From contig JAFZIZ010000014.1 of NCBI GenBank assembly GCA_017554145.1, positions 1 through 64,000 on the forward strand: a stretch of DNA of 64,000 nucleotides, given 5' to 3'. The notes below the pieces were generated by a model. The model did no database searches. It had not been told where the DNA came from and saw nothing but the letters and a program-made list of their open reading frames with translations. Origin of the DNA: Prevotella sp. (GTDB taxonomy: Bacteria > Bacteroidota > Bacteroidia > Bacteroidales > Bacteroidaceae). This document shows, in pieces, positions 76-61,262 of the stretch. The position numbers were made by a program, and so were the translations under genes. Numbering within the stretch: position 1 is the first letter of the stretch; each line of letters opens with the position of its first letter.

Positions 76-110
76 CATTCAACATTCAACACTCAACATT
101 CAACATTTAA
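76..110 (+). repeat. Degenerate heptamer array (cattcaa)x5
   Basis: Five consecutive 7-bp units (cattcaa, cattcaa, cactcaa, cattcaa, catttaa) end two bases before the ATG of the amidase gene, so the array occupies the translation-initiation region. Eleven other arrays of the same design occur in this window. Confidence 0.85.
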
Positions 111-112
111 AA

Positions 113-526
113 ATGAGAAGGATTACGTTGATCATCATTCATTGTTCAGCAGTGAGACCCGACCAGATGAGTTCGGCGGCACAGATAGACACATGGCATC
201 GCCAGCGAGGCTTTCACCTCGGCATCGGCTACCATTACGTTATCCGTCGTGACGGAGAGATAGAAGCTGGTCGTCCGGAATATATGGTCGGTGCCCACTG
301 CAAGAACCACAACGCCCACTCGATAGGCGTCTGCTACGAGGGCGGGCTCGATGCCCGAGGTCAGCCTGCCGACACACGCACCGAGGCACAGAAGAAGACA
401 CTGCTGAGTCTGCTCAGAGCCCTGAAGGTCGATTACCCCGATGCCCTCATCGTCGGCCACCACGACCTGAACCCGCAGAAGGCATGTCCCTGCTTCGATG
501 CAGCGAAAGAATATAAGAATCTGTAA
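113..526 (+). CDS. N-acetylmuramoyl-L-alanine amidase (Amidase_2/PGRP fold)
   Basis: A 137-residue single-domain zinc amidase that would cut the bond between N-acetylmuramic acid and the L-Ala of the peptide stem. Visible family marks are the N-terminal IIIHCSA segment with the first zinc histidine, the central GAHCKNHNAHSIGVCYEGG segment, and the C-terminal HHDLNP followed by KACPCFD, which carries the second histidine and the cysteine. There is no signal peptide. Proteins of this size and type are common in Bacteroidales, often as phage-derived endolysins or with T6SS or conjugation modules. No phage genes are visible beside it, so it may be a remnant or a housekeeping copy. The start is the ATG directly after the heptamer array. 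Confidence 0.88.
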   Translation: MRRITLIIIHCSAVRPDQMSSAAQIDTWHRQRGFHLGIGYHYVIRRDGEIEAGRPEYMVGAHCKNHNAHSIGVCYEGGLDARGQPADTRTEAQKKTLLSLLRALKVDYPDALIVGHHDLNPQKACPCFDAAKEYKNL

Positions 527-530
527 AACG

Positions 531-554
531 AGGAGCCTTCGGGCTCCTTTTTTT
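531..554 (+). terminator. Rho-independent terminator after amidase
   Basis: A perfect stem of aggagcc and ggctcct around a TTCG tetraloop runs into a T tract (548-554), five bases after the amidase stop. Confidence 0.9.
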
Positions 555-565
555 CGCTTTATTTC

Positions 566-596
566 TTTGTCGTTTAAAAGAATCTTTGTACCTTTG
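566..596 (+). promoter_or_regulatory. Bacteroidetes promoter of first dipeptidase gene
   Basis: TTTG at 566-569, 19 bp, then TACCTTTG at 589-596. This matches the -33/-7 consensus of the Bacteroidetes primary sigma factor. The predicted transcript starts near 601, about 20 nt before the ATG. Confidence 0.8.
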
Positions 597-619
597 ACCA
601 GAAAATAATAACATAAGAT

Positions 620-3384: not shown

Positions 3385-3810
3385 ATGAGAAAGAATATAA
3401 TAAAGACAGTACTGTGGTGCTTGGCAATATTGCTGATGACAGCGTGTATGGACGAGAAGGTTCCCCCGCACTCAAAGGCATTTATTGACAAGTATTTCCC
3501 TCATTCTACTGTTGTCCTTGTAGAGATAGATGATGACGATGATGACGGGAAGGAATACAGTATATTGCTCAATGACGGTACAAAGATAGAGTTCACCATG
3601 CAAGGAGAATGGAAGAGGGTGAGTCGTAAGAAGACGGGTGTCCCCTCTACGCTTGTCCCCAAGCCCATCCTTCAGTATGTGAAGACTTACCATCCTGAGG
3701 ACGTGATTACGAAACTCAGCAAGAAGCCATACGGTTTCAAGATAGAACTCTCCAACGATGAGGATGTGCGTTTCAATCCGCAAGGACAGTTCATGGAGAA
3801 GATTGATTAA
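3385..3810 (+). CDS. PepSY-like (BLIP-like fold) lipoprotein
   Basis: A 141-residue lipoprotein with lipobox LMTAC at about residue 21. The mature part resembles the small PepSY-like beta-lactamase-inhibitor-type domains common in Bacteroidetes. It has a conserved-looking HPxxxV turn, the pattern VLVEIDDDDDDGKEYSILL with a run of six Asp, then GTKIEF and a second IxxY half. The Asp run could bind divalent metal. It is probably co-transcribed with the ABC exporter. Function is unknown. Confidence 0.7.
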   Translation: MRKNIIKTVLWCLAILLMTACMDEKVPPHSKAFIDKYFPHSTVVLVEIDDDDDDGKEYSILLNDGTKIEFTMQGEWKRVSRKKTGVPSTLVPKPILQYVKTYHPEDVITKLSKKPYGFKIELSNDEDVRFNPQGQFMEKID

Positions 3811-3850
3811 CGAGAGATAGAACATTCGAAACAATATAATATTGATGATT

Positions 3851-6007
3851 ATGAAGAAGAATCTGATTCTAATGATATCTGCCTGCTTGCTGATACTGCT
3901 TGTAGGATGTAAGACGGAAGAAGAAAGCACAAACGTTTCACCGGTTACCAAGGTCACCATTATCGACCCTGTGGGATATGCCCAGAATATGGGTGCATGG
4001 ATACCTGCTACTGGGGGTGCCCGTAAAAAACTCCTATTGGAAGAAGGACAGCATTATGTGTTGGGCATCATCTGGGAACCTTCCAGTGTGCAGTCGCCCG
4101 TTGTTACTTGGCGCGCCACCAACAGTAATTTTGAGGAAGCAACAGTAAATGCTCAGGGTATCATCAGTGGAGTAAAAGAAGATCCCGATAACAGCAATGA
4201 GTGTCTGATGATCGTTGATGCTGCACCTACTGTTTCCGATACGATTGAGGTCAAGGTCCTGAAGGAATTGTCAGGTGTCTATGAGATTAAGGCTGACAAT
4301 CGTGACATCGTCCTTCCTGACGGCGGCTCCATTCGTTCTACAGTCCGTGTGACTAATGCGTCAAACGCCAGCGGCAGTCTCAACAACAAGGATCTTATCA
4401 CGGGATTCTTCTCTGATAAGAACCGAGCAAACTTCAACGATGCCGTCACGATTACTTTCATTGCAGGAAGTTCGTTCGACATACAGGCTAATGGTCCCGG
4501 TGTAAACATCCTGATGGCTTACTCGAAGGCTTATATCAGTTCTCCTACCAGTGGCGAGGTCAAGTATTTCGACGATGTACGCGACTATGCGGTACTGGCT
4601 TCTACCTGTAAGCGACAAGCCCTTCAGGTTGACTCTGCCTATGTGAGTCTTGACCAACACAACTTACATCTCACTAAAGGTGCCACCGCCCAACTGACAG
4701 CCAAACTCGTCGCTGGCAATCCGAGAAAGTCGGCTACCATCACCTTTGTCAGCAGCAATCCTGACGTAGCCACTGTCGACCAGACTGGTAAGGTGACGGC
4801 TGTCGGCAGCGGTCTCGCTACCATCACTGCATCCACGAACCATCTCGCAGAGGAGCAGGAATGCGTGATTAACGTTGATGAGGCTGTGCCTGTTGCTGTC
4901 ACACGTATCGCTGACCAACCAGACTTCACTACTACCCACACTGTCACACGCAGTCTCATCGTTGAGGGGCAGACCAGACAACTATACTCCGACTCCCACA
5001 AGGATGAAGTAAACGCTGCCTCAGGCACCATATGGCACAGTACAGATCCGAAGGTTGTCACTGTCGACAATAACGGACTGGCGACTGCCGTCGGAAGAGG
5101 TTCTGCTGTCATCTATGCCACACCGTATGTTGATATGAACGGCACACAGGTTCAAGGTATCTCCGACTGTAGTTGCTTTACGGTGATGCCCGACTATACT
5201 AAGGCTAAGTTGGGTGACATCTTCTATAGCGACGGTTCCTTCAGCACCAATGTCGAGGCAGGGAAAACACCTATCGGTATTATCGTTTACCTGAACTGCG
5301 ATGCCTCTTCAAACCCCGTTGCAGGTTCCAGTACCCTTACTGAGAGTGCAGAACTGGCACAATACGGAGCAATAGGAACAGAGAAGAATTTCCATGGTTT
5401 GGTGATGTCGCTGAAGAATGCCACCACTAATGTGAAATGGGGCAAGGAGGCTGCCTCAACACAACTTGTCGGTGTAACCGTGGCTAAGGACGATGCCACG
5501 ATGAAGTATAGCAGTACCGTTCTCAATTCGAGCGGTTTCAATGCTGCTATCTATACCAATGGTGAGGATATCATTACTGGTGCGCCCACCTTCAATCCTG
5601 CAGAGAGTTATCCCGCCTGTTATGCAGGATGGCACTACAATGTCAATGTACCCAGTTTCGTTACCAACTGGTTCATGCCCACCTCCCCACAGTGGTATGC
5701 TGTATTATTCAACGGGTTGGGCGGTCTACAGGCTGAAGGCATCACGCCAGCATGGAACACCTACTTCAATAACGCAAATGCATTCAAGAAGATTAACGAT
5801 GCCCTTGGCAAGTTAAGTGCTGTTGGTGTCGATAAACTTCCAGAGAACGCCCTTATATGGACCGCCAACGAGGGTGATGACAACGGCACAACGGCTGCTG
5901 CCCTGCTTGTCAACAGCAACGGTTTGAAGTTCATGCCCGTCAGCAAGACAGTCAATAAGGGTGAAGGTAATGAAGAATCATTAGTCCGTACTTTCTTTGC
6001 CTTCTGA
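3851..6007 (+). CDS. Surface lipoprotein with BIG2 (bacterial Ig-like) domains
   Basis: About 718 residues from ATG 3851; a TTG at 3842 and an ATG at 3845 are in frame just upstream. Lipobox LLVGC gives a lipid-anchored protein. Two BIG2-type modules are seen near residues 265-345 (pattern SSNPDVATVDQTGKVTAVG) and 375-440 (STDPKVVTVDNNGLATAVG). The C-terminal third contains a GDIFYSDGSFS segment and a WYAVLFNGLG-type stretch, as in Bacteroidales secreted proteins linked to fimbrillin or BACON/BIG2 architectures. It is probably an outer-surface adhesin or structural protein; the ligand is unknown. Confidence 0.8.
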   Translation: MKKNLILMISACLLILLVGCKTEEESTNVSPVTKVTIIDPVGYAQNMGAWIPATGGARKKLLLEEGQHYVLGIIWEPSSVQSPVVTWRATNSNFEEATVNAQGIISGVKEDPDNSNECLMIVDAAPTVSDTIEVKVLKELSGVYEIKADNRDIVLPDGGSIRSTVRVTNASNASGSLNNKDLITGFFSDKNRANFNDAVTITFIAGSSFDIQANGPGVNILMAYSKAYISSPTSGEVKYFDDVRDYAVLASTCKRQALQVDSAYVSLDQHNLHLTKGATAQLTAKLVAGNPRKSATITFVSSNPDVATVDQTGKVTAVGSGLATITASTNHLAEEQECVINVDEAVPVAVTRIADQPDFTTTHTVTRSLIVEGQTRQLYSDSHKDEVNAASGTIWHSTDPKVVTVDNNGLATAVGRGSAVIYATPYVDMNGTQVQGISDCSCFTVMPDYTKAKLGDIFYSDGSFSTNVEAGKTPIGIIVYLNCDASSNPVAGSSTLTESAELAQYGAIGTEKNFHGLVMSLKNATTNVKWGKEAASTQLVGVTVAKDDATMKYSSTVLNSSGFNAAIYTNGEDIITGAPTFNPAESYPACYAGWHYNVNVPSFVTNWFMPTSPQWYAVLFNGLGGLQAEGITPAWNTYFNNANAFKKINDALGKLSAVGVDKLPENALIWTANEGDDNGTTAAALLVNSNGLKFMPVSKTVNKGEGNEESLVRTFFAF

Positions 6008-9115: not shown

Positions 9116-9146
9116 TTTGTATTTTGCTCGGTTTGCACTACCTTTG
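9116..9146 (+). promoter_or_regulatory. Promoter P2 of HAD-panB-MFS genes, near-leaderless
   Basis: TTTG at 9116-9119, 19 bp, TACCTTTG at 9139-9146. Transcription should start near 9151, only about 5 nt before the HAD ATG at 9156. The promoter position rules out the in-frame upstream start at 9117. Confidence 0.8.
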
Positions 9147-9155
9147 CAGCCGCAA

Positions 9156-9785
9156 ATGGAGAAGGTGAAAGCGGCATTGTTTGACTTGGACGGCGTAGTG
9201 TTCGACACTGAGCCGCAATATACGGTGTTCTGGGGAGCACAGTGTCGCGAGTTTCATCCAGAGCACCCAGGACTGGAGCACGAGATAAAGGGACAGACGC
9301 TCGACCAGATCTACGATGCTTGGTTTGGGGGTGCACTGACGGAGAAACGTCCCCTTATCACGGAGCGTCTGAATGCCTATGAGCAGCAGATGGACTATCA
9401 GTACATCAAGGGCTTCGAGGTGTTTGTGAAAGGACTCCGCAGCGAGGGTGTGAAGACGGCGGTGGTGACGAGCTCGAACCAGCTGAAGATGGAGAGCGTC
9501 TATCGACAGCATCCTGAGTTCAAAACACTGTTTGACGCTATTCTGACGTCGGAGGATTTCGAATACTCGAAGCCGCATCCTGACTGTTACCTGAAAGCTG
9601 CTGCCCGCTTTGGTACAAAACCTGAGGAGTGTGTGGTGTACGAGGACTCGTTCAACGGTCTGAAGTCGGGTAGGGCAGCTGGCATGAAGGTGGTAGGTCT
9701 CGCTACGACGAACAGCGCAGAGGATATAGAATCGCTTTGCGATTGCGTAATCAAAGATTACTCCACTTTAAACTCTAAACTTTAA
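9156..9785 (+). CDS. HAD-superfamily hydrolase, beta-phosphoglucomutase/phosphatase type
   Basis: 209 residues from ATG 9156, which begins [19 protein letters not shown]. Motif I is DLDGVVFD with both catalytic Asp, motif II is TSS in VVTSSNQLK, motif III is Lys in KPHPDCY, and motif IV is [10 protein letters not shown]. The cap domain is the small helical type, which fits sugar-phosphate phosphatases or phosphoglucomutase-like enzymes; the substrate is not readable. The stop lies inside the heptamer array that separates it from panB. Confidence 0.9.
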
Positions 9786-9799
9786 TCTTTAAACTTTAT
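9765..9799 (+). repeat. Degenerate heptamer array (actttaa)x5 at HAD/panB junction
   Basis: Five 7-bp units: actttaa, actctaa, actttaa, tctttaa, actttat. The array encodes the last residues and the stop of the HAD protein and ends 6 bp before the panB ATG. Confidence 0.85.
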
Positions 9800-9805: not shown

Positions 9806-10624
9806 ATGGGATATTTAGTTAGCGACTCACGGAAAGTGACAACGCATCGTTTTATTGAGATGAAGCAGAAGGGAGAGAAAATCTCCATGTTAACATCCTA
9901 CGACTTCACAACGGCAGGCATCGTAGACCGTGCCGGTGTTGACGGCATCCTGATTGGTGACTCGGCATCGAATGTGATGGCAGGTAACCAGACTACATTG
10001 CCGATGACAGTCGACCAAATGATCTATCACGCCCGTTCGGTAGTGAAGGCTGTGAACCGTGCTCTAGTGGTTTGCGACATGCCTTTCGGCTCGTATCAGG
10101 TGAATGCGGCAGAGGGTGTGGGCAATGCTATCCGTATCATGAAGGAGAGCGGTTGCGACGCCTTGAAACTGGAGGGCGGCGTGGAGATTGCCGACACCGT
10201 GAAGCGCATCCTCGATGCTGGTATCCCCGTGATGGGACACTTAGGACTGACACCACAGTCCATCAATAAATTCGGCACCTATGCCGTGCGTGCCAAGGAA
10301 CAGGAGGAGGCAGACAAACTGATGTCGGATGCCAAACTGTTGGCCGAACTGGGTTGCTTCTCTGTCGTATTAGAGAAAGTACCTGCGAAACTGGCTGCTG
10401 AGGTATCAAAGGAAATCAGTGTTCCGACGATTGGCATCGGAGCCGGCAACGGTACTGACGGACAGATTCTCGTCATCGCTGATATGCTGGGGATGACACA
10501 GGGCTTCTCACCACGTTTCTTGCGCCGCTATGCCGACCTGAACGCCGTGATGAGCGAGGCCATCGGCAACTATGTCGGTGACGTGAAGAGCGGTGACTTC
10601 CCCAACGAAAGTGAATCATACTAA
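9806..10624 (+). CDS. panB: 3-methyl-2-oxobutanoate hydroxymethyltransferase (ketopantoate hydroxymethyltransferase)
   Basis: A 272-residue cytosolic enzyme of full family length. It transfers a hydroxymethyl group from 5,10-methylenetetrahydrofolate to alpha-ketoisovalerate, the first committed step of pantothenate and CoA synthesis. Visible blocks are [21 protein letters not shown] (metal ligand Asp), [31 protein letters not shown] and [14 protein letters not shown]. The C-terminal part has [11 protein letters not shown] as in other family members. panC and panD are not in the window. The stop abuts the ATG of the MFS gene. Confidence 0.97.
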
Positions 10625-11800
10625 ATGAACAGTCAGAACACACCTGTACATATCAAACTCTGGCATCGTGAGTTCTGGCAGATGGCAGTGGCGAACCTGT
10701 TGCTGTCGATGTCGGTCTATATGCTGATACCTGTTCTGCCGCTTTGGTTGGCCAGCGAGGAGAATTTCTCGGCAACGGAGATAGGTTTGTCGATGGGTAT
10801 CTTTGCAGTGGGCCTTTACCTAATGGGACCATTCGTCTCGTATCTTGTACAGCGCTATCGCCGTAACATAGTGTGTCTATGGGCTATCGTGGCACAGGTG
10901 GTGACACTTGCCTTGCTTCTGTATATCAATAGCAAAAGGATGGAGTTCGTCGACTTGTGGCTGGTATTGGTAGAGCGCTTAATCTTGGGAGCTGCTTTCG
11001 GAATGGCACAAATGGTGCTGTCGAGCACACTGATCATCGATACATGTGAGTCGTACCAACGTACGGAGGCGAACCATAGTGCCTCGTGGTTCGGACGCTT
11101 TGCCCTTTCGTTAGGTCCGTTGGCAGGACTACTTATACTTCATCTTTGGGATTTCCACATTGTTATCTTTGTGGCGATGGGCTGTGCCTTCCTTTCGTTG
11201 CTGCTCATCAGTGCGGTGACCTTTCCGTTCCGTGCTCCTGAAGAGCATATCCACCTGTTCAGCAACGACCGTTTTATGTTAGGACAGGGTGGGGTGCTAT
11301 TTGTCAATCTGCTGCTGATTACACTGGCTATCGGTATCATGTTGAGCAGGATGGATGCTGTGGCTTACGGAATACTGATGGTGGGATTCCTGTTGGCATT
11401 GCTGGCCCAGCGTTTTATGTTCAAGGATGCGGAGCTGAAAAGTGAGGTGGTAACGGGACTTATTCTCCTAATGGCTGCACAACTCATCATCCTGACGCAG
11501 CATACTCAGACGGCTTCCTATATTGCATCGGCTTTCACAGGTATGGCTACTGGCATCATCGGTTCACGCTTCCTGCTGTTCTTTATCAAACTTAGTCGCC
11601 ATTGTCAGCGTGGCACCTCGCAGAGCACATTTATGTTGGCGTGGGAAACAGGACTGGCACTAGGCGTAGGCCTCAGTTACTTGTTGGTAACGAGGATGCC
11701 GTATCGTATCATGTGGATGGCTTTGGCACTAAGCATCGCAGCATTGGTGATGTATAACGTCTTCACGCACGGTTGGTTCATGAAACACAAGAACCGCTAA
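10625..11800 (+). CDS. MFS transporter
   Basis: A 391-residue hydrophobic protein with about 12 membrane spans. After the second span there is a short basic loop (YLVQRYRRNIV) in the position of the MFS motif A loop. The ATG follows the panB stop without a gap, so it is co-translated with panB. The substrate cannot be told; co-transcription with panB makes pantothenate or an unrelated solute equally open. Its 3' end overlaps the convergent addB gene by 4 bp. Confidence 0.88.
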   Translation: MNSQNTPVHIKLWHREFWQMAVANLLLSMSVYMLIPVLPLWLASEENFSATEIGLSMGIFAVGLYLMGPFVSYLVQRYRRNIVCLWAIVAQVVTLALLLYINSKRMEFVDLWLVLVERLILGAAFGMAQMVLSSTLIIDTCESYQRTEANHSASWFGRFALSLGPLAGLLILHLWDFHIVIFVAMGCAFLSLLLISAVTFPFRAPEEHIHLFSNDRFMLGQGGVLFVNLLLITLAIGIMLSRMDAVAYGILMVGFLLALLAQRFMFKDAELKSEVVTGLILLMAAQLIILTQHTQTASYIASAFTGMATGIIGSRFLLFFIKLSRHCQRGTSQSTFMLAWETGLALGVGLSYLLVTRMPYRIMWMALALSIAALVMYNVFTHGWFMKHKNR

Positions 11801-14568
11801 CCCCTTCCACAGAGTTTTGCATACGGACAGTATCGACAGTTCTTCTTGTCTTCCGTAGGCGTAAACGCTATCTCTGGATTAAAGATTTCGTTGATACAGA
11901 TCTTTAAATCTTTCTTAAAATCAGCTATATACGGTTCGACATCGAGAATCTTCTCATCACCGAAACGGAGTGTGGGGTCGTAGTCGTCGACTGCGGAGTG
12001 CTGGATGAACAGCAGGGCAGGACTGACGGGAAGATGACTATCGTTGAGTTTGCTATTGTGTCGCACGATACTACTATATAATAAGGTCTGCAGGTAGTAG
12101 CCGTTGTGCGAATCGTTAGTCGTAAAGATGCTCTCCACATCGGCGATGCTATCCAGTTGTCCAGCGCTCGTCTTATAGTCTATCACACGGATGCGTTCGT
12201 GGTCGTTATCCACATCAATGGCATCCAAGCGGTCGATACTGCCGCCTATCGTCGTGGTGAACGACACCTGTCCATTATCCACCTGCCAATCGTCTACTAC
12301 CTCATGCTCCAACGCAAGAACGTTAAAGGGGGTGAGGCGCATGTCGAGCTGTAACAACTGACGCACATAATGAATCACCACCTCACGATTGATGAGTTGC
12401 AGACCATTATATTCCTTCATGTCTGGAAGTTCGTGACGGAAAGCCTCGTCAACGGCTAGTGCTATTGCCGTCTTTGACTCTAACAGCTGTTGCAACTGTA
12501 CCTTCTCGATGCGATGACTGCGTTGCATCAGTTGCTCGTAGATATGTTGGGCAGCGGCATGGAACACCAATCCGAAAATACGGTCATCAATTTGTGGCTC
12601 ATCATCATCGGGCTCTTTTAATCCGCCTACATAGCGATAGAAGAAACGCAACGGACAACGGCGATAGCTGTTGATAGCAGTAGGCGTCAGCAGAGCATGC
12701 TGGGTATCGGGCTTCTTCGTAAAGCGATCTAAGAGCACTTGCATGACAGCATCTGTTTTGGTGAGAGGTGAGTGGTTATTGATGAGAGATGATTGGTGTG
12801 AGTTTGCTTTGAGAGCAAATTGTGTGATAGGATGTCCGCTCTCAACCATCAGTTGAAGCATGAAACGGCTCATCTCGCCAGTATGTCTCTCGTCCGCCGT
12901 ATTATTATAGACGAGCGTCACATCCTTAGCCCGTTGCAGGATACGATGGAAATAATACGCATAGATGGCGGTCTTATGGTCGACGGTCGTCAACTCGTAG
13001 GCTTTGCGCAGACTGTGGGGAATGAAAGAACTATCGTTGATGCCCTTCGGCATATTACCTTCATTGCAGGAAAGCATCAGCACGTGGTCGAAATCAAGGT
13101 TGCGCGACTCCAGAATACCCATCACCTGAATACCTTCTGCTGGTTCACCGTGGAAGGGTATTGAGGCAGCACGTATCAACTGGGTGACGAGACGTTGCAG
13201 GGTAGTGAGGTCGACAGTCAAGTCACCACTGTTCGTCAGTCCTGCCAGCCGGTTGATGAGTGTATAGGTGCGGAACAGCGATTCTTCGCGTAGGGCATCC
13301 GTATTCTCTTCCTTATCAACGTGAGCTTGCTGGGCAATATGGCGTAACAGACGGGCTATCCACTGGAGAATTGCCTCTGTCGGGAACAGTCCTGTAGTAT
13401 CACATCCCTTCAACAGTTCATCATCCAGATATCTATAATAAGGATGTCGACGGATGGCTGCCATCAGACGAGGACGATAACCTCCAATCTGCAAGGTCAG
13501 CAGTAGGTTAACCAGTGAGGCGGCAGGTGTCAGAGCCAACGGGTAGCCAGTAGTGATATTCACCTTCTCCACCTCTGTAGGCAAACAATGGATGACGACT
13601 GGCAGAAGTTGTTCGTCGCAAAGGAGGACGGCGGTACGTTTCCCATCGGTATAGCGCTGGTGTTCCTTCAACCATGTGCTGACATAACGTGCCTGGATAT
13701 TCTCTGTCGGTGCAGAGATATAAGTGATATCCTTGGGCTGTTGGAACTGGCGATAGATGGCATCATCGTGGATATCCAACTCGTTGGGATAGTCGCTGAG
13801 ATACTGGGCGATGAAATGTCCTGCCTCATGCTGATGCATATAGTAATGGTCGAAGTCCCAATAAAAGAATGCCTTTCCTTCTTGTTTCAGTCTGGAAAAC
13901 AGTCGTTGCTCAACTTTGTGTAAGAGATTGAAGCCAACAAAGAGATAACGGTCATATTCGAAAGATAGTTCTTCATTGTCGGCTACCTGACGATACAAGG
14001 CACCCTCATAGGCCAACTGCTGTTCAGCAAGACGATGGTTGAAGTCGTGATAGATATCAGCAAAATGACTCCAAAGTTTCAGGAAACGTTCTTTCAGCGT
14101 ACTGTTATGCTCGTCAGAAAAATTGCTGAAAAACTGACGGATGATGTCTCGCTGCTCGTCTGTGAGATAACTGACATCATCCAGTTCATGAATGTCACGC
14201 AGATTGGCAAAGACACGGTCGGCATCTGCCATGTTTTTATCAATATCGTCGAAGTCGGAAAGCAAGAGTTGTCCCCATCCATAAAAGCGGTCGAGTGTCT
14301 CGTCAATACCCGTACAGGCAACGAAAGAACGATGCAGGTCACATACCAGTTTGATAGGATCTGCCACCGTCAGCGAGGAATGAGAACGAAACAGGTCGCT
14401 GATGGTGATATAGGAAGGACTCCAGATAGGTCGCCCTGCCAATCGTGCAAGATGCTCGTTGATAAACAGGGAGGCACGTTTGTTGGGGAACACGATGGCT
14501 ATACGTGACAAGTCGTGTCCGTACTTACGGATGATATCCTCTGCGACATATTCTAAGAAAGTCTTCAT
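11797..14568 (-). CDS. addB: AddB-like PD-(D/E)XK nuclease subunit with Fe-S cysteines
   Basis: A 923-residue partner of the AddA helicase-nuclease that follows in the description. The N terminus has a helicase-like fold without a usable Walker A (SRIAIVFPNKRASLFINEHL). The C-terminal RecB-type nuclease shows SYRRCPLRFFYRY, then a catalytic IRVIDYKTSAG block. A final CRYCPYAKLC completes a C...Cx2Cx5C four-cysteine set expected to hold a 4Fe-4S cluster. AddAB processes double-strand ends for recombination. The ATG overlaps the addA stop by 4 bp. A 42-bp heptamer array is embedded in frame (12760-12801). Confidence 0.88.
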   Translation of the reverse strand: MKTFLEYVAEDIIRKYGHDLSRIAIVFPNKRASLFINEHLARLAGRPIWSPSYITISDLFRSHSSLTVADPIKLVCDLHRSFVACTGIDETLDRFYGWGQLLLSDFDDIDKNMADADRVFANLRDIHELDDVSYLTDEQRDIIRQFFSNFSDEHNSTLKERFLKLWSHFADIYHDFNHRLAEQQLAYEGALYRQVADNEELSFEYDRYLFVGFNLLHKVEQRLFSRLKQEGKAFFYWDFDHYYMHQHEAGHFIAQYLSDYPNELDIHDDAIYRQFQQPKDITYISAPTENIQARYVSTWLKEHQRYTDGKRTAVLLCDEQLLPVVIHCLPTEVEKVNITTGYPLALTPAASLVNLLLTLQIGGYRPRLMAAIRRHPYYRYLDDELLKGCDTTGLFPTEAILQWIARLLRHIAQQAHVDKEENTDALREESLFRTYTLINRLAGLTNSGDLTVDLTTLQRLVTQLIRAASIPFHGEPAEGIQVMGILESRNLDFDHVLMLSCNEGNMPKGINDSSFIPHSLRKAYELTTVDHKTAIYAYYFHRILQRAKDVTLVYNNTADERHTGEMSRFMLQLMVESGHPITQFALKANSHQSSLINNHSPLTKTDAVMQVLLDRFTKKPDTQHALLTPTAINSYRRCPLRFFYRYVGGLKEPDDDEPQIDDRIFGLVFHAAAQHIYEQLMQRSHRIEKVQLQQLLESKTAIALAVDEAFRHELPDMKEYNGLQLINREVVIHYVRQLLQLDMRLTPFNVLALEHEVVDDWQVDNGQVSFTTTIGGSIDRLDAIDVDNDHERIRVIDYKTSAGQLDSIADVESIFTTNDSHNGYYLQTLLYSSIVRHNSKLNDSHLPVSPALLFIQHSAVDDYDPTLRFGDEKILDVEPYIADFKKDLKICINEIFNPEIAFTPTEDKKNCRYCPYAKLCGRG
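12760..12801 (-). repeat. In-frame heptamer array inside addB (6 units)
   Basis: Six 7-bp units on the plus strand (ggtgaga, ggtgagt, ggttatt, gatgaga, gatgatt, ggtgtga), 42 bp or exactly 14 codons. On the coding strand they specify a polar stretch around SHQSSLINNHSPLT that looks like an inserted loop in the AddB protein. Confidence 0.8.
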
Positions 14569-21610: not shown

Positions 21611-21638
21611 ATCTTGCCTCTTACTTCTTACTTCTCCT
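21611..21638 (-). repeat. Heptamer array (gtaagaa type) at rarA/TRIC junction
   Basis: Four 7-bp units, in coding sense gtaagaa/gtaagag/gcaagat. They carry the rarA stop codon and end at the ATG of the next gene, filling the 17-bp intergenic gap and its ribosome-binding position. Confidence 0.85.
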
Positions 21639-22908: not shown

Positions 22909-22917
22909 AATCAATGG

Positions 22918-22948
22918 CAAAGGTAACGATTTTTGGGAAATTAACAAA
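22918..22948 (-). promoter_or_regulatory. Promoter of rarA, near-leaderless
   Basis: On the minus strand TTTG (22948-22945), 19 bp, TACCTTTG (22925-22918). The predicted start near 22914 leaves about 6 nt before the ATG at 22908. Confidence 0.85.
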
Positions 22949-38159: not shown

Positions 38160-39462
38160 ATCTTGTAGTTGCGTATAAGTCAAATTCTTCGGCATCTGTT
38201 ATCTTCACATCATAGAATGCTCCGATTGTCAATGGCTCATCAATGGGAATCAGTACCTCGGGGTCGACTTCAGGGGAACAGAATTCCGTGCGTCCCACAT
38301 ACCAGTCACCTTCTGTACGGTCGATAATGACTTTCATCACCTGTCCCACTTTCTCGCCTTCTATCTCTGCACTGATATGCTGTTGGATGCGCATCAGGCG
38401 GTCAAGGCGAGCCTGTTTGACATCAGTAGGTACATCGTCTTGATAATGGGTTGCTGAATAGGTACCGTCTTCTTCTGAATAGGCAAAGGCTCCCATTCGC
38501 TCAAAGCGAGCCCAACGAGTGAAATCAAGCAGTTCCTGATAGTCTTCATCAGTCTCTCCAGGGAAGCCCACCATCAATGTGGTACGCAGATGGATGCCAG
38601 GAACCTCCTCACGGATCTTATTGATGAGTTCGTAGGTCTGTTCTTTGGTCACATGACGCTGCATACGCTCCAGCATGTGGTCGCTGATATGTTGCAGGGC
38701 AATATCCAGATAGTTGCAGATATTCTTGTTTTCTCGCATCACCCGTAACAAATCCCATGGGAAATGGGCAGGATAGGCATAATGCAAACGAATCCATTCT
38801 ACTCCCTCTATGGCAGCCATGCGTTCTATCAGTTCTGCGATATGTTGTTTGCCGTCGATATCGATACCATAGTAAGTCAACTCCTGGGCGATGACTTGAA
38901 ACTCTTTTGTTCCTTGGCTGACCAGATAGCGTACCTCATCAAGAATCTCTTCCATCGGACGACTCTGATGCCTGCCCGTAATCAGGGGAATAGCACAATA
39001 GGCACAATGTCGGTCACAGCCCTCACTGATCTTGATATATGCATAATGGCGAGGAGTGGTAAGATGTCTATGGTAATCTCTCACCTCTTGCTTCTCACCT
39101 CTCACCTCTAAATCACTCAACAATTCCTTATAATTAAACTTCCCATACCAGCCATCTACCTCAGGAATCTCCTGTTCAAGGTCTGCCAAGTAACGTTCAG
39201 ACAAGCAGCCCATTACATAAAGTTTCTGAAGTCTTCCTTCTGTCTTTGCCTGCGCAAATTCTAGGATAGTATCAATACTCTCCTGCTTGGCATCCTCGAT
39301 GAAACCACAGGTATTGATGACAGCAATCTCTCCATGAGGATCCTCACTGTCATGCGTCACCTGATAACCATGAGATTCGAAGAGTCCCATCAGTTTCTCA
39401 CTGTCAACGAGATTCTTCGAACACCCTAAGGTGATGAAATCTATGGTCGGTTTCTTAGTCAT
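38152..39462 (-). CDS. rimO: Ribosomal protein S12 methylthiotransferase RimO
   Basis: 436 residues from ATG 39462 (MTKKPTIDFITLGCSKN). It adds a methylthio group to Asp of ribosomal protein S12. The N-terminal UPF0004 domain has LGCSKNLVDSE and NTCGFIEDAKQES, the radical SAM domain CDRHCAYC (Cx3Cx2C), and a C-terminal TRAM domain is present. The loop between ELLSDL and HLTTPRHYAYIK contains a heptamer-encoded EVRGEKQEVR stretch. The start overlaps the ftsY end by 8 bp. Confidence 0.96.
   Translation of the reverse strand: MTKKPTIDFITLGCSKNLVDSEKLMGLFESHGYQVTHDSEDPHGEIAVINTCGFIEDAKQESIDTILEFAQAKTEGRLQKLYVMGCLSERYLADLEQEIPEVDGWYGKFNYKELLSDLEVRGEKQEVRDYHRHLTTPRHYAYIKISEGCDRHCAYCAIPLITGRHQSRPMEEILDEVRYLVSQGTKEFQVIAQELTYYGIDIDGKQHIAELIERMAAIEGVEWIRLHYAYPAHFPWDLLRVMRENKNICNYLDIALQHISDHMLERMQRHVTKEQTYELINKIREEVPGIHLRTTLMVGFPGETDEDYQELLDFTRWARFERMGAFAYSEEDGTYSATHYQDDVPTDVKQARLDRLMRIQQHISAEIEGEKVGQVMKVIIDRTEGDWYVGRTEFCSPEVDPEVLIPIDEPLTIGAFYDVKITDAEEFDLYATTRYE
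39079..39113 (-). repeat. In-frame heptamer array inside rimO
   Basis: Five 7-bp units on the plus strand: tctcacc, tcttgct, tctcacc, tctcacc, tctaaat. On the coding strand this is ggtgaga-type and encodes LEVRGEKQEVR between the N-terminal and radical SAM domains. Confidence 0.82.
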
Positions 39463-41236: not shown

Positions 41237-41271
41237 AGTTTAGAGTTAAGAGTTTAAAGTTCAGAGTTTTC
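41237..41271 (-). repeat. Heptamer array (agtttaa type)x5 upstream of rpmB
   Basis: Five 7-bp units on the plus strand: agtttag, agttaag, agtttaa, agttcag, agttttc. It lies in the gap between the cinA-like stop and the rpmB -7 box. Confidence 0.85.
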
Positions 41272-41813: not shown

Positions 41814-41845
41814 CGTTATACCGTTTTTACGTTATATCGTTATTA
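41814..41845 (-). repeat. Octamer array (cgttatta type)x4 at tsaD/pncC junction
   Basis: Four 8-bp units on the plus strand: cgttatac, cgttttta, cgttatat, cgttatta. It fills most of the gap between the tsaD stop and the pncC start. The same octamer family sits at the other end of tsaD. Confidence 0.85.
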
Positions 41846-41848: not shown

Positions 41849-42904
41849 CTATTTAAAAGTGACTTTCGAGAATGCTGGCGCATCAATCGGACAAGTCTCT
41901 CCATCCAGATATTTATAGTAGCCCACAATACCGATCATAGCGGCATTATCAGTGGTATAGCTGAACTTAGGAATATAGATGGTCCAACCATATCGCTTGG
42001 CATGATCATGGAAAGCATTACGCAGTCCGTTATTCGCACTCACACCACCAGCCACAGCCACATGTTTGATACCTGTCTGCTTCACTGCCAACTTCAGTTT
42101 CTTCATCAGAATATCCACAATCGTCCATTCCAACGAGGCAGCGATATCTTCTTTATGATGCTCAATGAAATCAGGATCGTCCTCAATCCATTTCCGCAGA
42201 TTATAGAGGAAGGATGTCTTCAGACCAGAGAAGCTATAGTCGAGTCCTGGTATATGAGGTTCAGCAAACTGGAATGCCTTCGGATTACCTTGACGTGCCA
42301 GACGGTCGATGATAGGACCACCGGGATAACCCAGTCCCATTACTTTTGAACACTTATCAATAGCCTCACCTGCTGCATCATCGATGGTCTGACCGAGCAC
42401 TTCCATATCATTATAGGCATTGACCTTTACGATCTGCGAATTACCTCCACTCACTAACAGACAAAGGAAAGGCAATGGCGGAATATTTGAGCATTCTCTC
42501 ACCTCTCCATCCTCACCTCTCACCTCTTCTTTGATGAAGTGTGCCATCACGTGACCCTGTAGATGATTGACATCGATGAGAGGAATACCTAAAGAACGAG
42601 CAAAGCCCTTGGCAAAACTCACTCCTACTAACAAGGAGCCCATTAGTCCGGGACCTCTGGTAAAAGCGATAGCAGTCAGTTGTTCTTTGGTGATACCCGC
42701 CTTTTTGATGGCTTGGTCAACCACTGGTACTACATTCTGCTGGTGTGCCCTAGAAGCCAGTTCGGGCACCACGCCTCCGTAGGCCTCATGTACAGCCTGT
42801 GATGCCGTCACGTTCGACAACAGTACTCCATTCTTTAGCACTGCTGCACTCGTGTCGTCACAACTCGACTCTATACCTAATATATATATATCCTTTGTTA
42901 TCAC
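41849..42904 (-). CDS. tsaD: tRNA N6-adenosine threonylcarbamoyltransferase TsaD
   Basis: 351 residues from a GTG start that lies inside an octamer repeat. It transfers threonylcarbamoyl to A37 of ANN-decoding tRNAs with TsaB and TsaE. Marks are ILGIESSCDDTSAA, GGVVPELASRAHQQN, FTRGPGLMGSLLVG, LLVSGGNSQI, DDAAGEAIDKCSKVMGLGYPGGP and VAVAGGVSANNGLR. The loop after HFIKEE is lengthened by a heptamer-encoded EVRGEDGEVR. No ATG start is available before the conserved N terminus. Confidence 0.96.
   Translation of the reverse strand: MITKDIYILGIESSCDDTSAAVLKNGVLLSNVTASQAVHEAYGGVVPELASRAHQQNVVPVVDQAIKKAGITKEQLTAIAFTRGPGLMGSLLVGVSFAKGFARSLGIPLIDVNHLQGHVMAHFIKEEVRGEDGEVRECSNIPPLPFLCLLVSGGNSQIVKVNAYNDMEVLGQTIDDAAGEAIDKCSKVMGLGYPGGPIIDRLARQGNPKAFQFAEPHIPGLDYSFSGLKTSFLYNLRKWIEDDPDFIEHHKEDIAASLEWTIVDILMKKLKLAVKQTGIKHVAVAGGVSANNGLRNAFHDHAKRYGWTIYIPKFSYTTDNAAMIGIVGYYKYLDGETCPIDAPAFSKVTFK
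42497..42531 (-). repeat. In-frame heptamer array inside tsaD
   Basis: Five 7-bp units on the plus strand: tctcacc, tctccat, cctcacc, tctcacc, tcttctt. On the coding strand these are ggtgaga-type and encode EEVRGEDGEVR, nearly the same peptide as the array in rimO. Confidence 0.82.
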
Positions 42905-42927
42905 GTTATTACGTTATACCGTTATTA
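42896..42927 (-). repeat. Octamer array at map/tsaD junction containing the tsaD start
   Basis: Four 8-bp units on the plus strand: tgttatca, cgttatta, cgttatac, cgttatta. The GTG start of tsaD (complement of 42902-42904) falls across the first unit boundary. Confidence 0.82.
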
Positions 42928-46277: not shown

Positions 46278-46312
46278 AATCATCATTCATAGTTCAAAAT
46301 TCATAATTATAT
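46278..46312 (+). repeat. Heptamer array (attcata type)x5 upstream of a -7 box
   Basis: Units aatcatc, attcata, gttcaaa, attcata, attatat, 35 bp in all, end 2 bp before the TACCTTTG at 46315. The layout is the same as upstream of rpmB. Confidence 0.75.
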
Positions 46313-46348: not shown

Positions 46349-46864
46349 ATGAAAAGAATAATGATGACAACAGTCCTGCTGCTCACAGTAGTGATGGGAC
46401 TTCAGGCACAGAGTATAGTGGGAACATGGGAAACTGTTATAGAGACTGACGATAATGACAAGGTTACCGTTGACGTTACTTTCGAACAGGGAAACGATGT
46501 CTTAATAAAGGGACAACTTAAAATCGGAGAGGGTGAAGAAGGTACCATGGTGATGTCAGTTACCTTTCCTGGCACCTATCAACAGAACGGACAAACGCTT
46601 ACGCTGAATTTCGATGCCAACAAAGGTAAGATAAATATTGACGAAGCCATCTTTCCCAAAGAGGTAGAAGACCTATTAGCAGATGACCCCGATAAGAGGA
46701 AGGATGTCTTGAAGATGATGCAGGATCAAGTTGACGAGAGTCTGGCTAAAGAACTCGGCGACTCACTGCCCTTGGACGGCGACCTAACCATCGTCAAACT
46801 GACAGACACAGAGTTGGTGCTTAATGACGGTGATGATAACGTTACATTCACGAAAGTGAAATAA
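46349..46864 (+). CDS. Secreted lipocalin-like protein
   Basis: 171 residues with a signal peptide (cleavage after LQAQ). The mature part begins SIVGTWETVIETDDNDKVTVDVTF and continues with beta strands GTYQQNGQTLTLNF and VKLTDTELVLNDGDD, the pattern of Bacteroidetes lipocalin-like domains, with an acidic helical insertion in the middle (about 95-145). Periplasmic or secreted. It stands 12 bp before the next small secreted gene and upstream of the TonB receptor. Confidence 0.75.
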   Translation: MKRIMMTTVLLLTVVMGLQAQSIVGTWETVIETDDNDKVTVDVTFEQGNDVLIKGQLKIGEGEEGTMVMSVTFPGTYQQNGQTLTLNFDANKGKINIDEAIFPKEVEDLLADDPDKRKDVLKMMQDQVDESLAKELGDSLPLDGDLTIVKLTDTELVLNDGDDNVTFTKVK

Positions 46865-52647: not shown

Positions 52648-53760
52648 ATGAAGAAACGGACTATTATCACTGCCATGCCGATGGTTTTCCTTGCTGTCAT
52701 GACGGTCATATCGTGTGGCGAGAAAAAGCAGCAGAAACATGATGCAACTCAATATCAAACGATGGTGGTGAACAGGAAGGATATGACACTCGAACGCTCA
52801 TATAGTGCCAGACTGACGGGTCGACAAATTGTGGAGATACGTCCGCAGGTGTCGGGTTGCATTACACGTATTCTGACTGGTGAAGGTCAGGCTGTACGTA
52901 AGGGACAGACGCTGTTTGTTATTGACCAAGTACCTTACCGCGCTGCACTGGAAGTAGCTGTGGCTACCCGCAAGAGTGCTGAGGCAAGATTGGCAACGGC
53001 GAAGATGAATTACGAAAACGAATCGCAGTTGCAAGAGGGACGTGTAGTGAGTGATGTCTCAGTAGTGACCATGCGCAATGCCCTACTCGAAGCAGAGGCA
53101 GCATTGGCACAGGCGAAGGCACAGGAAGTAAATGCTCGCAACAACCTGAGTTATACAGAAGTGAAGAGTCCTGTCAGCGGTGTGGCATCAATGATTCCCT
53201 GGCATGTAGGATCGTTGGTCAGCAGTAACATCAGCGAACCGTTGGTAACGGTAGCCGACGATTCGGAAGTCTATGTATATTTCAGTATCAGCGAGAATCA
53301 GGCACTCGACCTTATCTCACAATATGGTTCCATTGAGGGATTCATCAGAAAGGCGCCCCCTGTGGGACTTCGTCTGAACAACGGTAAGGAATACGAACAG
53401 AAGGGACATATCAGTGCCGTCAGCGGAACAGTAGATGCACAAACAGGTGCCGTGACACTGCGTGCAACATTCCCCAACACAGGAGGTCTGCTACATCATG
53501 GTGGTAGTGCCACAGTGGTAGTACCTACACATCGTCAACAATGTATCGTCATTCCTCAAGAGGCTACCTACGAGTTGCAGAATCGTATGTTCGTATATCG
53601 TGTGGTGAACGGTAAGACAAAGGCTACGCCAGTCACTCTCTTTCCGCAGAATAATGGTCGCGAATACATCGTAGAGGAAGGTATCAGCACAGGTGATACT
53701 ATCATCGCTGAGGGTGCAGGACTGCTCAAAGAGGGAGTGGAAGTTGGAGGTAAGAAGTAA
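52648..53760 (+). CDS. RND efflux periplasmic adaptor (AcrA/MexA family), lipoprotein
   Basis: 370 residues with lipobox VISC. Lipoyl-type halves are GRQIVEIRPQVSGCITRI and NNLSYTEVKSPVSGVAS, with a helical hairpin between them (residues about 105-165), then the beta-barrel (GHISAVSGTVDAQTGAVTLRA) and membrane-proximal parts. It bridges the inner-membrane pump and an outer-membrane channel. The C terminus (VEVGGKK) and stop are formed by a heptamer array, 12 bp before the pump gene. Confidence 0.94.
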   Translation: MKKRTIITAMPMVFLAVMTVISCGEKKQQKHDATQYQTMVVNRKDMTLERSYSARLTGRQIVEIRPQVSGCITRILTGEGQAVRKGQTLFVIDQVPYRAALEVAVATRKSAEARLATAKMNYENESQLQEGRVVSDVSVVTMRNALLEAEAALAQAKAQEVNARNNLSYTEVKSPVSGVASMIPWHVGSLVSSNISEPLVTVADDSEVYVYFSISENQALDLISQYGSIEGFIRKAPPVGLRLNNGKEYEQKGHISAVSGTVDAQTGAVTLRATFPNTGGLLHHGGSATVVVPTHRQQCIVIPQEATYELQNRMFVYRVVNGKTKATPVTLFPQNNGREYIVEEGISTGDTIIAEGAGLLKEGVEVGGKK

Positions 53761-53777
53761 GAAGTAAGAAGGATGAA
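53743..53777 (+). repeat. Heptamer array (gtaagaa)x5 at adaptor/pump junction
   Basis: Units gttggag, gtaagaa, gtaagaa, gtaagaa, ggatgaa. The adaptor stop (53758) and the pump ATG (53773) both lie within the array. Confidence 0.85.
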
Positions 53778-58778: not shown

Positions 58779-60050
58779 TTACTTACGAACAATTGTCTGG
58801 TCGCGATCCGGACCAATAGAGATAATCTTGATAGGAGTCTCAAGTTCCTTTTCGAGGAAAGCGATATACTCCTTGAAAGCCTGTGGGAACTGCTCCTCAC
58901 TGGTGAACTGTGTCATATCTGTCTTCCATCCTGGCAGTTCTTTGAAGACAGGTTCGATACCCTCTTCAATATTGTAGGGGAAGTAGTCAATCTCCTGTCC
59001 ATTCTGCTTATAAGCTACACAAGCCTTGATAGTATCGAAATCATCCAGAACATCACTCTTCATCATAATGAGTTGGGTAACACCATTCACCATGATAGAA
59101 TATTTCAGGGCAACAAGGTCTATCCAGCCACAACGGCGCTCACGACCCGTCACTGCTCCATACTCATGACCAAGGTCACGAATCTTCTTGCCCGTTTCGT
59201 CAAAGAGTTCTGTGGGGAAAGGACCAGCACCTACACGTGTGCAATAAGCCTTCATGATACCATAGACATCCCCAATCTTGTTGGGACCAATACCCAGACC
59301 TGTGCAAGCTCCTGCACAAATGGTGTTGGAAGAGGTAACAAAAGGATAAGAACCGAAATCAATATCCAGCATCGTACCCTGAGCACCCTCGCAAAGTACA
59401 CTCTTACCACTCTTCAATAGGTTGTTAATCTCATGCTCTGAGTCTACTATGGGGAACTGACGGAGATACTCAATACCTTCCAGCCACTTCTTCTCTACCT
59501 CCGTAATATCATACTCAAAGTTCAGCGACTTCAGGATAGCATCGTGACGAGCCTTAGCCTTGGCATATTTCTCTTCGAAGTTCTCCAAGATATCACCAAC
59601 ACGAAGACCATTACGGCTTACTTTGTCTGTATACGTAGGACCAATACCCTTACCAGTAGTACCAACCTTATCCTTACCTTTCTGTGCCTCATAAGCAGCA
59701 TCCAGCACACGGTGGGTTGGCATAATCAGATGAGCCTTCTTAGAGATATGCAAACGAGAACGCAATTCATGTCCACTTGCCTCCAAAGCCTTAGCCTCTT
59801 CCATAAAGAGGTCTGGAGCCAAAACAACACCATTACCGATGATGTTCACCTTGCCTCCCTGAAAGATACCAGAAGGAATACTGCGAAGCACGTATTTCTG
59901 TCCCTCGAACTCCAGTGTGTGACCGGCATTAGGTCCACCTTGGAAGCGGGCTACTACATCATACTGCGGGGTCAGCACATCGACCACCTTTCCTTTTCCC
60001 TCATCGCCCCACTGTAAACCAAGCAGGACATCTACTTTTCCTTGATTCAT
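58779..60050 (-). CDS. purA: Adenylosuccinate synthetase
   Basis: A 423-residue GTP-dependent enzyme converting IMP and Asp to adenylosuccinate. Marks are DVLLGLQWGDEGKGK (P-loop and catalytic Asp), GGPNAGHT, TGKGIGPTYTDK, CEGAQGTMLDIDFG and GRERRCGW. Full length. The ATG overlaps the fur-like stop by 4 bp and its stop abuts the hisS start, so all three are translationally coupled. Confidence 0.97.
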   Translation of the reverse strand: MNQGKVDVLLGLQWGDEGKGKVVDVLTPQYDVVARFQGGPNAGHTLEFEGQKYVLRSIPSGIFQGGKVNIIGNGVVLAPDLFMEEAKALEASGHELRSRLHISKKAHLIMPTHRVLDAAYEAQKGKDKVGTTGKGIGPTYTDKVSRNGLRVGDILENFEEKYAKAKARHDAILKSLNFEYDITEVEKKWLEGIEYLRQFPIVDSEHEINNLLKSGKSVLCEGAQGTMLDIDFGSYPFVTSSNTICAGACTGLGIGPNKIGDVYGIMKAYCTRVGAGPFPTELFDETGKKIRDLGHEYGAVTGRERRCGWIDLVALKYSIMVNGVTQLIMMKSDVLDDFDTIKACVAYKQNGQEIDYFPYNIEEGIEPVFKELPGWKTDMTQFTSEEQFPQAFKEYIAFLEKELETPIKIISIGPDRDQTIVRK

Positions 60051-60547
60051 TTGATCTTCTTATTTTGATTTTTCAATTTCTTCTTCTGAGATTTAATACG
60101 AGTAATCTTCGCCTGGCATGTACTACAGATGCCATAGATATAGAGCGAGAAGCCATCCTTACGGAAACGCTTCAGGTGCATATTACTGATGGTCTCGGTA
60201 ATCTGGGGAGCCTTAATCTCCGTAACCTTTCCACACATCGTACAGATTTGGTGACTATGACTGTTGTTGTCGTAACACGCCTCATACTTCGTCTGACCTT
60301 GAAAACGATGGCGAATGACCAAACGCAATTCCATAAACAGTTTCAAGGTATTATAAAGGGTAGCACGACTGACAGGGAAATTATTCTCCTTTGCCAGTTT
60401 CTCACTCAACTCATCGAGGGTGAAGTGACCATTTGTATCATAGACAGCATCCAGAATCGCATAACGCTCAGGCGTCTTGCGATGGTTGTTCATCTCCAGA
60501 TAACTGGTCAGAATCTGCTTGACAGTGGTCTTTGCACTTTCTTTCAT
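60047..60547 (-). CDS. Fur-family transcriptional regulator
   Basis: 166 residues. The N-terminal winged helix includes TPERYAILDAVYDTNGHFTLDEL and SRATLYNTLKLF. The C-terminal dimer domain has SHSHQICTMCGKVTEI and YGICSTCQAKI, giving the two CxxC pairs of a structural zinc site and metal-sensing His residues. It ends in a Lys-rich tail. It may sense iron, zinc or peroxide; which one is not decidable from sequence. A minus-strand TAATTTTG (60580-60573) is a possible -7 box. Confidence 0.93.
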   Translation of the reverse strand: MKESAKTTVKQILTSYLEMNNHRKTPERYAILDAVYDTNGHFTLDELSEKLAKENNFPVSRATLYNTLKLFMELRLVIRHRFQGQTKYEACYDNNSHSHQICTMCGKVTEIKAPQITETISNMHLKRFRKDGFSLYIYGICSTCQAKITRIKSQKKKLKNQNKKIK

Positions 60548-60612
60548 CGAATCATCATACCATAAAACCGCACAAAATTACTACATTTTATTCAAATTAT
60601 GGCATTAATAAT

Positions 60613-61227
60613 TTAAAAAATATCTAAATTAATCGATTTAAGTGCACTTTTTGCCATTCGCTCATACACAAGGCCCAGTTCCGAAAAACGAATTGCACTT
60701 TGCATGGCGGCCTTTCTTACTGAGGGAAAAGGTCCTTGTAAGGCTACCAGCAACTGGTCAATGTACTCATTGATGCCTCGTTCGTTAGGTTCTTGTTTAT
60801 TCATAAACAAACGCGTCAGGATATGGAAACCACACAACTGTTCCAGTTCCTTATCGGAAGCCATCCACTGATATGCCTTTTCTGCAGCATAAGGAAGATG
60901 TTGATAGAGATTAAAGGATGCTTGTTCGGCAATCTCCTGTGAGGGTGTCTGTTCCATCCAGATATCCACCACCTCGGGAAGTATCTCCTCGGCAGGCATC
61001 ACCATCGTAGCAAGAATCTTACATTCCCTGACATCTGCCTTCCATAATTCGATAGCCAAGTCATAGTTCTTCCCTATTTCCGAAGCTTTCTCTCTCAACA
61101 TCGGGATAGAGGCTCCCCAGTTGAGTTTATACTCCAGTCCCTTGTCGCGCATCGACTGTGCTGTCTGACCATCCATCAACTGACGGAACGACTGCTTGAT
61201 TTCCTTTACCTGCTCCTTGATATCCAT
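60613..61227 (-). CDS. AlkD-like DNA alkylation repeat protein
   Basis: A 204-residue all-helical HEAT-like protein. WGASIPMLREKASEIGKNYDLAIELW, ECKILATMVMP and CGFHILTRLF follow the AlkD pattern (helical repeats with Trp and Asp/Arg near the DNA-binding groove). AlkD enzymes remove alkylated bases without base flipping, but many Bacteroidetes members are untested. The start codon lies directly after a heptamer array joining it to the upstream peptidase gene. Confidence 0.85.
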   Translation of the reverse strand: MDIKEQVKEIKQSFRQLMDGQTAQSMRDKGLEYKLNWGASIPMLREKASEIGKNYDLAIELWKADVRECKILATMVMPAEEILPEVVDIWMEQTPSQEIAEQASFNLYQHLPYAAEKAYQWMASDKELEQLCGFHILTRLFMNKQEPNERGINEYIDQLLVALQGPFPSVRKAAMQSAIRFSELGLVYERMAKSALKSINLDIF

Positions 61228-61262
61228 ATCTTACTTCTTACCTCTTACTTCTTACCTCTATA
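61228..61262 (-). repeat. Heptamer array (gtaagaa type)x5 at M49 peptidase/AlkD junction
   Basis: Five units on the plus strand: atcttac, ttcttac, ctcttac, ttcttac, ctctata. They cover the peptidase stop and run up to the ATG of the AlkD-like gene. The coding-strand unit gtaagaa is the same as at the rarA and RND junctions. Confidence 0.87.

Follow-up and report, generated by a model that had tools for sequence, protein, structure and literature searches.

The 64,000-nt stretch of a Prevotella sp. genome analysed here (the window; contig JAFZIZ010000014.1, positions 1 to 64,000) contains twelve short, imperfect tandem arrays, most of them built from heptamers, and such arrays are likewise dispersed over the rest of the scanned genome and over related species. 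They exceed chance expectation, peak at a length of 31-38 bp, recur as identical imperfect modules amid unrelated flanks and use units that form a "dialect" of each genome; among close relatives one block gain can be polarised, and an orthologous array has been swapped for one of another unit. We lean, with modest confidence, towards reading the arrays as dispersed modules that move by block copying and are then homogenised by slippage. The copying is visible in its products, and the pathway proposed below is the one that these products suggest to us.

The source genome, to which the window belongs as contig 15, is a 2.80-Mb draft in 38 contigs with a completeness of 83.5% and a contamination of 5%, probably assembled from a metagenome. 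Our scan covered 864 of its 2797 kb (800 kb in stretches plus the window), in which places are denoted by C3, C7 or C14 and a position, with an order-3 Markov shuffle as the null. At a score of at least 14 it contains 114 period-7 segments versus none in the shuffle; period 8 is represented by 13 segments, period 9 by five, periods 5 and 6 by none, and the harmonics 14 and 21 are high too. A looser threshold yields 156 period-7 arrays versus two in the shuffle, both of 17 bp. The excess over shuffled sequence, on which an earlier, sequence-only reading of the window depended, thus stands, and with period 7 beyond chance the arrays belong to the heptanucleotide simple sequence repeats. An assembly artefact is unlikely as their source: they are also found in isolates such as Xylanibacter brevis ATCC 19188, where one heptamer pattern was matched 27+22 times and the controls 3+2 times.

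The same reading had expected a narrow range of lengths, and tabulation reveals a peak instead of a broad spread: 84 of the 156 arrays measure 31-38 bp, as compared to ten of 17-22 bp, 46 of 23-30 bp, 11 of 39-43 bp and five of at least 44 bp. A bias of the detector is ruled out as the cause of this peak because shorter simulated arrays were mostly recovered (50-72% of those with three units, or 21 bp, and 70-94% with four units, or 28 bp; 89-98% with five and 95-99% with six). In the relatives, represented by the 80 best named loci from other species (1.30 Mb in total, titled Prevotella, Prevotellaceae, Xylanibacter and similar, and mostly of ruminant origin), 60 of 132 period-7 arrays are 31-34 bp long, with a mode of 32 bp. 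One heptamer pattern was found, patchily, in 92 of 296 Bacteroidota genomes; in the pattern listing some of the other Bacteroidota (G170, G182) have arrays of more than 80 bp, and the 32-bp mode is therefore a statement about the genus Prevotella, not the phylum. Among 48 species loci longer than 15 kb, density is as low as 0 and as high as 4.6 arrays per 10 kb. Within the source genome it is very uneven as well, with no array in 40 kb (C7:100-140 kb) and 18 in 20 kb (C14:0-20 kb). The Xylanibacter ruminicola pair Ga6B6 and D31d has two to three period-7 arrays per 200 kb each, and consequently says little on large-scale turnover.

Copied modules can be recognised by their shared imperfections. 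The arrays at C3:182280 and C3:182790, which occupy successive joints of the source genome, have 38 identical bp in common, and two arrays in a single Mfd gene (C14:6799 and C14:9361) have 37, imperfections included. In the latter pair a second heptamer block follows, alike but not identical, which makes a composite of about 66 bp in total, and beyond it both flanks are at chance level. A larger segmental duplication is thus rejected as the source of the C14:6799/9361 module, where the likeness ends with the two-block composite; at C3:288 and C3:5000 the flanks match too, and a larger segmental duplication is present. A 40-bp module recurs at 98% identity in two Mfd loops of G022 (L293), with an inverted copy nearby. 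On L293 the module forms an inverted pair 68 bp apart, with a third copy 0.8 kb off (3803-3910 and 4703), an arrangement that a template switch could leave behind. In the 864 kb together with 109 loci we counted 69 isolated short duplicates with unlike flanks (overlapping matches merged); 27 are periodic, and 25 of these have period 7. One family of modules has the imperfect 20-mer core GAATAGTGATTAGTGAATAG, which Ga6B6 and P6B1 carry at six loci each and D31d at one, whereas the perfect form of this core occurs once in Ga6B6, once in D31d and twice in P6B1. Flank identity beyond the core reaches at most 42% in Ga6B6 and 36% in P6B1 (15 pairs each). Since the query came from one Ga6B6 site, the other five sites in that genome are independent evidence. 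Near-identical copies amid unrelated flanks, as in the Ga6B6 and P6B1 cores and the pairs of the source genome, are what defines a dispersed repeat family.

The gain of a whole block can be followed at the joint between the genes for an AAA_3 ATPase and a DUF58 protein, which 34 of the 80 loci include. In 13 of them the joint is empty, with an overlapping TGATG or TAATG; the other 21 are filled, each differently, and were classed by eye as ten heptameric, eight nonameric, one of a longer unit and two mixed. In X. ruminicola Ga6B6 the TGA stop of the ATPase gene and the DUF58 start are separated by a 31-bp (TAGTGAA) array, and the joint is empty in D31d (94-95% identical to Ga6B6) and in five other loci of its supported clade. 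The array is nested in an empty clade of the tsaD tree and must therefore be a gain, and deletion of whole arrays, as an explanation of all empty joints, is rejected at this joint for Ga6B6; at other places it is conceivable. Mapped on that tree, the filled and empty states require at least eight changes, five of them forced by well-supported branches; shuffled labels average 10.8, so that the label is loosely clustered. Of the ten heptameric inserts just one is a multiple of 7 in length; if local sequence had been duplicated in 7-nt steps, all ten should be, barring later indels. The nonamers based on CTAG (CTAGAATAT, CTAGTAGGA) occur at this joint in L152, L175, L189, L208, L211, L220, L229 and L230.

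Besides being gained, arrays are exchanged. At the L307 site Ga6B6 and the outgroup P6B1 have TAGTGAA and D31d a TTGAAAG-type array, and between L202 and L209, which are 90% identical, the arrays of one joint are nearly equal in length and differ in unit. Seven neighbouring pairs of blocks lie back to back, not more than 15 nt apart, and most of them differ in unit as judged by eye. No difference within arrays was found in the G074/G082 pair (99.7% identity, 7 kb). The two stretches of this pair, contig 80 of G074 (L103) and contig 47 of G082 (L104), nominally belong to two species, and G074 is 7% contaminated, so its contig 80 may be foreign.

Units are more alike within a genome than between genomes: their mean distance is 2.25 versus 2.63, and an identical unit is found in 11% versus 2% of pairs, a difference that none of 2000 permutations reached. 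One heptamer pattern, for instance, has 49 matches in X. brevis, two in D31d and none in Ga6B6. Inside the source genome, arrays less than 3 kb apart are likewise somewhat more similar than expected (distance 2.51 versus 2.73 permuted, p = 0.008).

Genes were delimited with a simple coding-score finder of our own, and of the 135 arrays of the source genome with at least 24 bp and a score of at least 11, 69 lie within open reading frames (ORFs), 52 in co-directional joints, nine in divergent and three in convergent ones, and two at contig edges. Sixteen are followed within 14 nt by TAnnTTTG, which we take to be the Bacteroidetes -7 box, where 1.7 would be expected, and the spacing is mostly 6-8 nt; the earlier description of arrays at joints, ahead of -7 boxes and in frame inside genes is thus borne out. 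Arrays in co-directional joints frequently overlap the upstream stop codon, and 28 of the 52 overlap the next start or end at most 9 nt away from it. On the sense strand ORF arrays contain 30% C and 14% G, joint arrays 7% C and 20% G; in ORF arrays the stop-free orientation is forced, because beyond a length of about 21 bp translation of a heptamer array passes through all three frames. The promoter site next to the array at 41237 holds a period-7 array in 24 of 39 relatives (score at least 9; two of the 24 are near-identical), in a register that appears shared by eye and with several units (CTCATTT, CTCAATT, CTTAATT, CTCTAAA), and the relatives that have none keep a similar length there.

Closeness to the next start, a C-poor sense strand at joints, the 16 arrays ahead of a -7 box and the frequent filling of the promoter site might indicate regulatory elements, which an RNA- or DNA-binding protein would recognise at gene starts. 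We nevertheless hold this to be very improbable as a general explanation: about half of the arrays are within ORFs, units vary by locus and are swapped between close species, and many orthologous joints are empty, so that a regulatory role leaves the coding half and the swaps unexplained. The suggestion that the arrays are functional spacers fails as a general account on similar grounds, given the 69 arrays within ORFs and the loops of Mfd described below, five of whose six arrays sit where length varies freely; a spacing role beside promoters is possible.

Arrays inside conserved proteins occupy mainly variable parts. The Mfd gene on C14 (L058:6353-9760; TRCF, CarD/RID, UvrB-interaction and DEAD domains) contains six in-frame heptamer arrays, and comparison with 28 relatives places five of them in loops whose length and sequence are free to vary. 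The other one (residues 254-267) lies in a moderately conserved stretch that is filled at a similar length in the others. Two of the six are back to back, and two have the 37-bp stretch in common. Among 39 relatives the tsaD loop at 42497 measures 35 nt in 28 and has other lengths in 11, being 24 nt longer in the window and 33 nt longer in G119; the tsaD array of the window is, by eye, common to G081 only, at the same place. The array at 39079-39113 is in a protein that is presumably RimO-like, in a loop that varies: G131 has a related array at the same place, and other relatives have other repeats or none. At the two tsaD joints the relatives possess octamers, heptamers, nonamers or nothing, in widely varying lengths, and octamers at the joint of 41814-41845 are found also in G007 and G553.

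How such arrays arise can be explained in several ways. On the one hand, plain heptanucleotide slippage might start from chance seeds, with a balance of growth and loss that holds length near 32 bp. Period 7 does dominate, relatives differ by 7 and 14 nt in the length of an array (one array, between L169 and L189), and heptanucleotides are reported, in the account of PMC4679880, as the commonest class of long repeats in most genomes. However, the block gained in Ga6B6 measures 31 bp, the joint inserts are mostly not multiples of 7, the in-frame tsaD loops differ by 24 and 33 nt, which are not multiples of 7 either, and identical imperfect modules stand amid unrelated flanks. We therefore regard slippage alone as unlikely, and indeed insufficient, because blocks of arbitrary size are gained, imperfections are shared at unlinked sites and arrays are swapped. 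These observations support the sequence-only reading in its argument that constant length with a varying unit speaks against simple slippage, and in its preference for a copy mechanism.

Block copying followed by slippage could proceed as follows. The module would be a sequence of about 28-38 bp, with four to five imperfect heptamers, dispersed in the genome. Some 30-40 nt of an existing array, at times two neighbouring blocks, would be copied into another tolerant place, where the copied block would either be cleanly added or replace the previous content. The copying step itself may be template switching guided by microhomology during replication or repair. Later slippage by 7 nt and point mutation would let the unit drift and homogenise. 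Arrays would persist where they do little harm, namely at co-directional stop/start joints, ahead of -7 boxes and in those loops of proteins that vary, and most copies are presumably near neutral.

Several points weigh against this reading. Donor and recipient of one event have never been seen together, just one gain is polarised in detail, and the other joint inserts may carry later indels. At two other Ga6B6 sites D31d has no clean gap but non-repetitive sequence of about the same length, which may have come from decay of a shared array or from replacement. Slippage acts too, as the array that differs between L169 and L189 indicates, and the change of unit, in register and at about constant length, beside the promoter could come from concerted slippage under a length constraint. 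Finally, the dependence of unit similarity on distance in the source genome is weak.

Alternatively, the modules could be a minimal mobile element, copied by a dedicated enzyme that recognises them or their transcripts. Their dispersal across several contigs instead of nearby sites alone and the range of densities among species loci are in keeping with such a system, and so is the TAGTGAA-type module on two predicted viral contigs (L337 295-328, L338 11763-11793), so that transfer from host to host by phages or proviruses is possible. Against this, units differ freely, which leaves no fixed recognition sequence. The inserts at the AAA_3/DUF58 joint split TGATGG with no target duplication beyond about 3 bp by eye, and conserved ends were not apparent by eye in the flank listing of the arrays, so that, on this inspection, the arrays lack the combination of conserved ends and target-site duplication that marks transposable elements, miniature inverted-repeat transposable elements (MITEs) or Rickettsia palindromic elements. 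A dedicated system accordingly seems to us quite improbable. Dispersed G-rich inverted stretches of the CCCTCCCC / GGGGAGGG type, which are not heptameric, recur in L220, L280 and L273.

The twelve arrays of the window, all of which are present where the sequence-only reading located them, are compiled in the table below. The description of nearly all of them, in that reading, as 32-35 bp long is correct for most, with the exception of 12760-12801 and 21611-21638. Six outscore everything in 150 order-3 Markov shuffles of the window, and four have an expectation of 0.04-0.07 per 64 kb. Two are weak if the score only is considered, 41814-41845 with an expectation of 0.55 and 42497-42531 with one of 1.5, yet they are still backed because relatives hold arrays at the same places. 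An Rfam search of the window returned one tRNA and no match at the arrays. In the ORF listing tsaD begins with a GTG that falls inside the octamer array 42896-42927, and this array may therefore supply the start codon.

Tandem arrays in the window: type, position, strand and context
CATTCAA heptamer array, 35 bp	76..110	+	ATG of ORF 113-526 lies 2 nt beyond the array end
ACTTTAA heptamer array	9765..9799	+	includes the stop of ORF 9117-9785; a ketopantoate hydroxymethyltransferase gene (9806-10624) has its ATG 6 nt beyond the array end
GGTGAGA/GGTGAGT heptamer-derived array, 42 bp	12760..12801	-	within ORF 11797-14568 (PD-(D/E)XK nuclease domain)
GTAAGAA heptamer array, 28 bp	21611..21638	-	fills the joint; contains the stop of ORF 21628-22947; a glycine transporter family gene starts at 21610 on the other side
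GGTGAGA heptamer array	39079..39113	-	in frame, variable loop of a radical SAM/UPF0004/TRAM protein
AGTTTAG heptamer array	41237..41271	-	TACCTTTG -7 box 6 nt downstream
CGTTATTA-type octamer array	41814..41845	-	joint of tsaD and a CinA family gene
GGTGAGA heptamer array	42497..42531	-	in frame within tsaD
CGTTATTA octamer array	42896..42927	-	joint of a peptidase M24 gene and tsaD
ATTCATA heptamer array	46278..46312	+	TACCTTTG -7 box 2 nt downstream, ahead of ORF 46349-46864
GTAAGAA heptamer array	53743..53777	+	covers the stop of a HlyD-like gene (52648-53760) and the ATG (53773) of an AcrB-family gene
GTAAGAA/GGTAAGA heptamer array	61228..61262	-	fills the joint; contains the stop of ORF 61258-63279; a DNA-alkylation-repair family gene (60613-61227) has its ATG on the other side

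As a class, heptamer repeats are already known; block gain, swap and dialects, as seen in Prevotella, are less ordinary. The short tandemly repeated repetitive (STRR) sequences of cyanobacteria include several different heptamer units per genome, as do the Prevotella arrays, and we know of no block gain or swap among them. Rickettsia palindromic elements and MITEs are small repeats that have been inserted in frame in conserved genes, and they are longer and palindromic, in contrast to the direct repeats of 30-35 bp in Prevotella, in which inverted ends are not apparent by eye.

Over-represented heptanucleotide repeats have been described from many bacteria, among them cyanobacteria, Xanthomonas, Beggiatoaceae and a few Bacteroidetes, and ascribed to polymerase slippage; Mrazek et al. 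2007, as cited, proposed that 7 nt matches the contact length of DNA polymerase (PMC4679880, PMC4692102). The arrays resemble the long repeats of Mrazek, as represented in the same two papers, in that period 7 is by far the commonest and distribution is patchy between species; as far as that representation goes, they differ in being imperfect, in their sharp 31-38 bp mode, in block exchange and in lying half in ORFs. The TAACTGA direct repeats of Beggiatoaceae, Cyanobacteria and five Bacteroidetes (MacGregor 2015, PMC4679880) were noted to be present or absent between relatives, transfer was raised, and for Beggiatoaceae a regulatory binding role was suggested. One unit dominates among them in that description, whereas Prevotella has many units with genome dialects, and its relatives have octamers and nonamers at the same sites; TAACTGA or its complement was seen in none of 184 candidate arrays. 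For the TAACTGA family and the GGGAATC family of Xanthomonas, similar copy numbers and a similar placement have been described (PMC4679880, PMC4692102). GGGAATC and GGGGA(C/T)T of Nostoc resemble the Prevotella arrays in consisting mostly of four units and in occupying mostly the same gene joints in two related species, with extensive variation in length and sequence (PMC4692102). Each is presented there as a single G-rich, quadruplex-capable family, unlike the AT-rich or mixed units of Prevotella. No description of the Prevotella form was found in the literature searched on heptamer repeats, to which subscription papers, Mrazek 2007 included, did not belong.

Since 2007 the excess of heptamers in bacteria has been left to the suggestion of polymerase slippage, to judge from PMC4679880 and PMC4692102. 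Because arrays can be polarised and traced between sites, the birth of such repeats becomes testable in cultured Xylanibacter. We entertain, as a doubtful proposition, that heptamer modules are a minimal mobile repeat free of any particular sequence, in which the form (about five units of seven bases) is copied and kept and not the sequence; if so, modules would invade, replace each other and impose one dialect on a whole genome, whether a dedicated enzyme takes part or not. Through the process, conserved proteins receive new peptides of about ten residues in their loops, and gene joints receive new stop, start and promoter-adjacent sequence. Small changes in coding and regulation would thereby arise steadily in a major gut genus.

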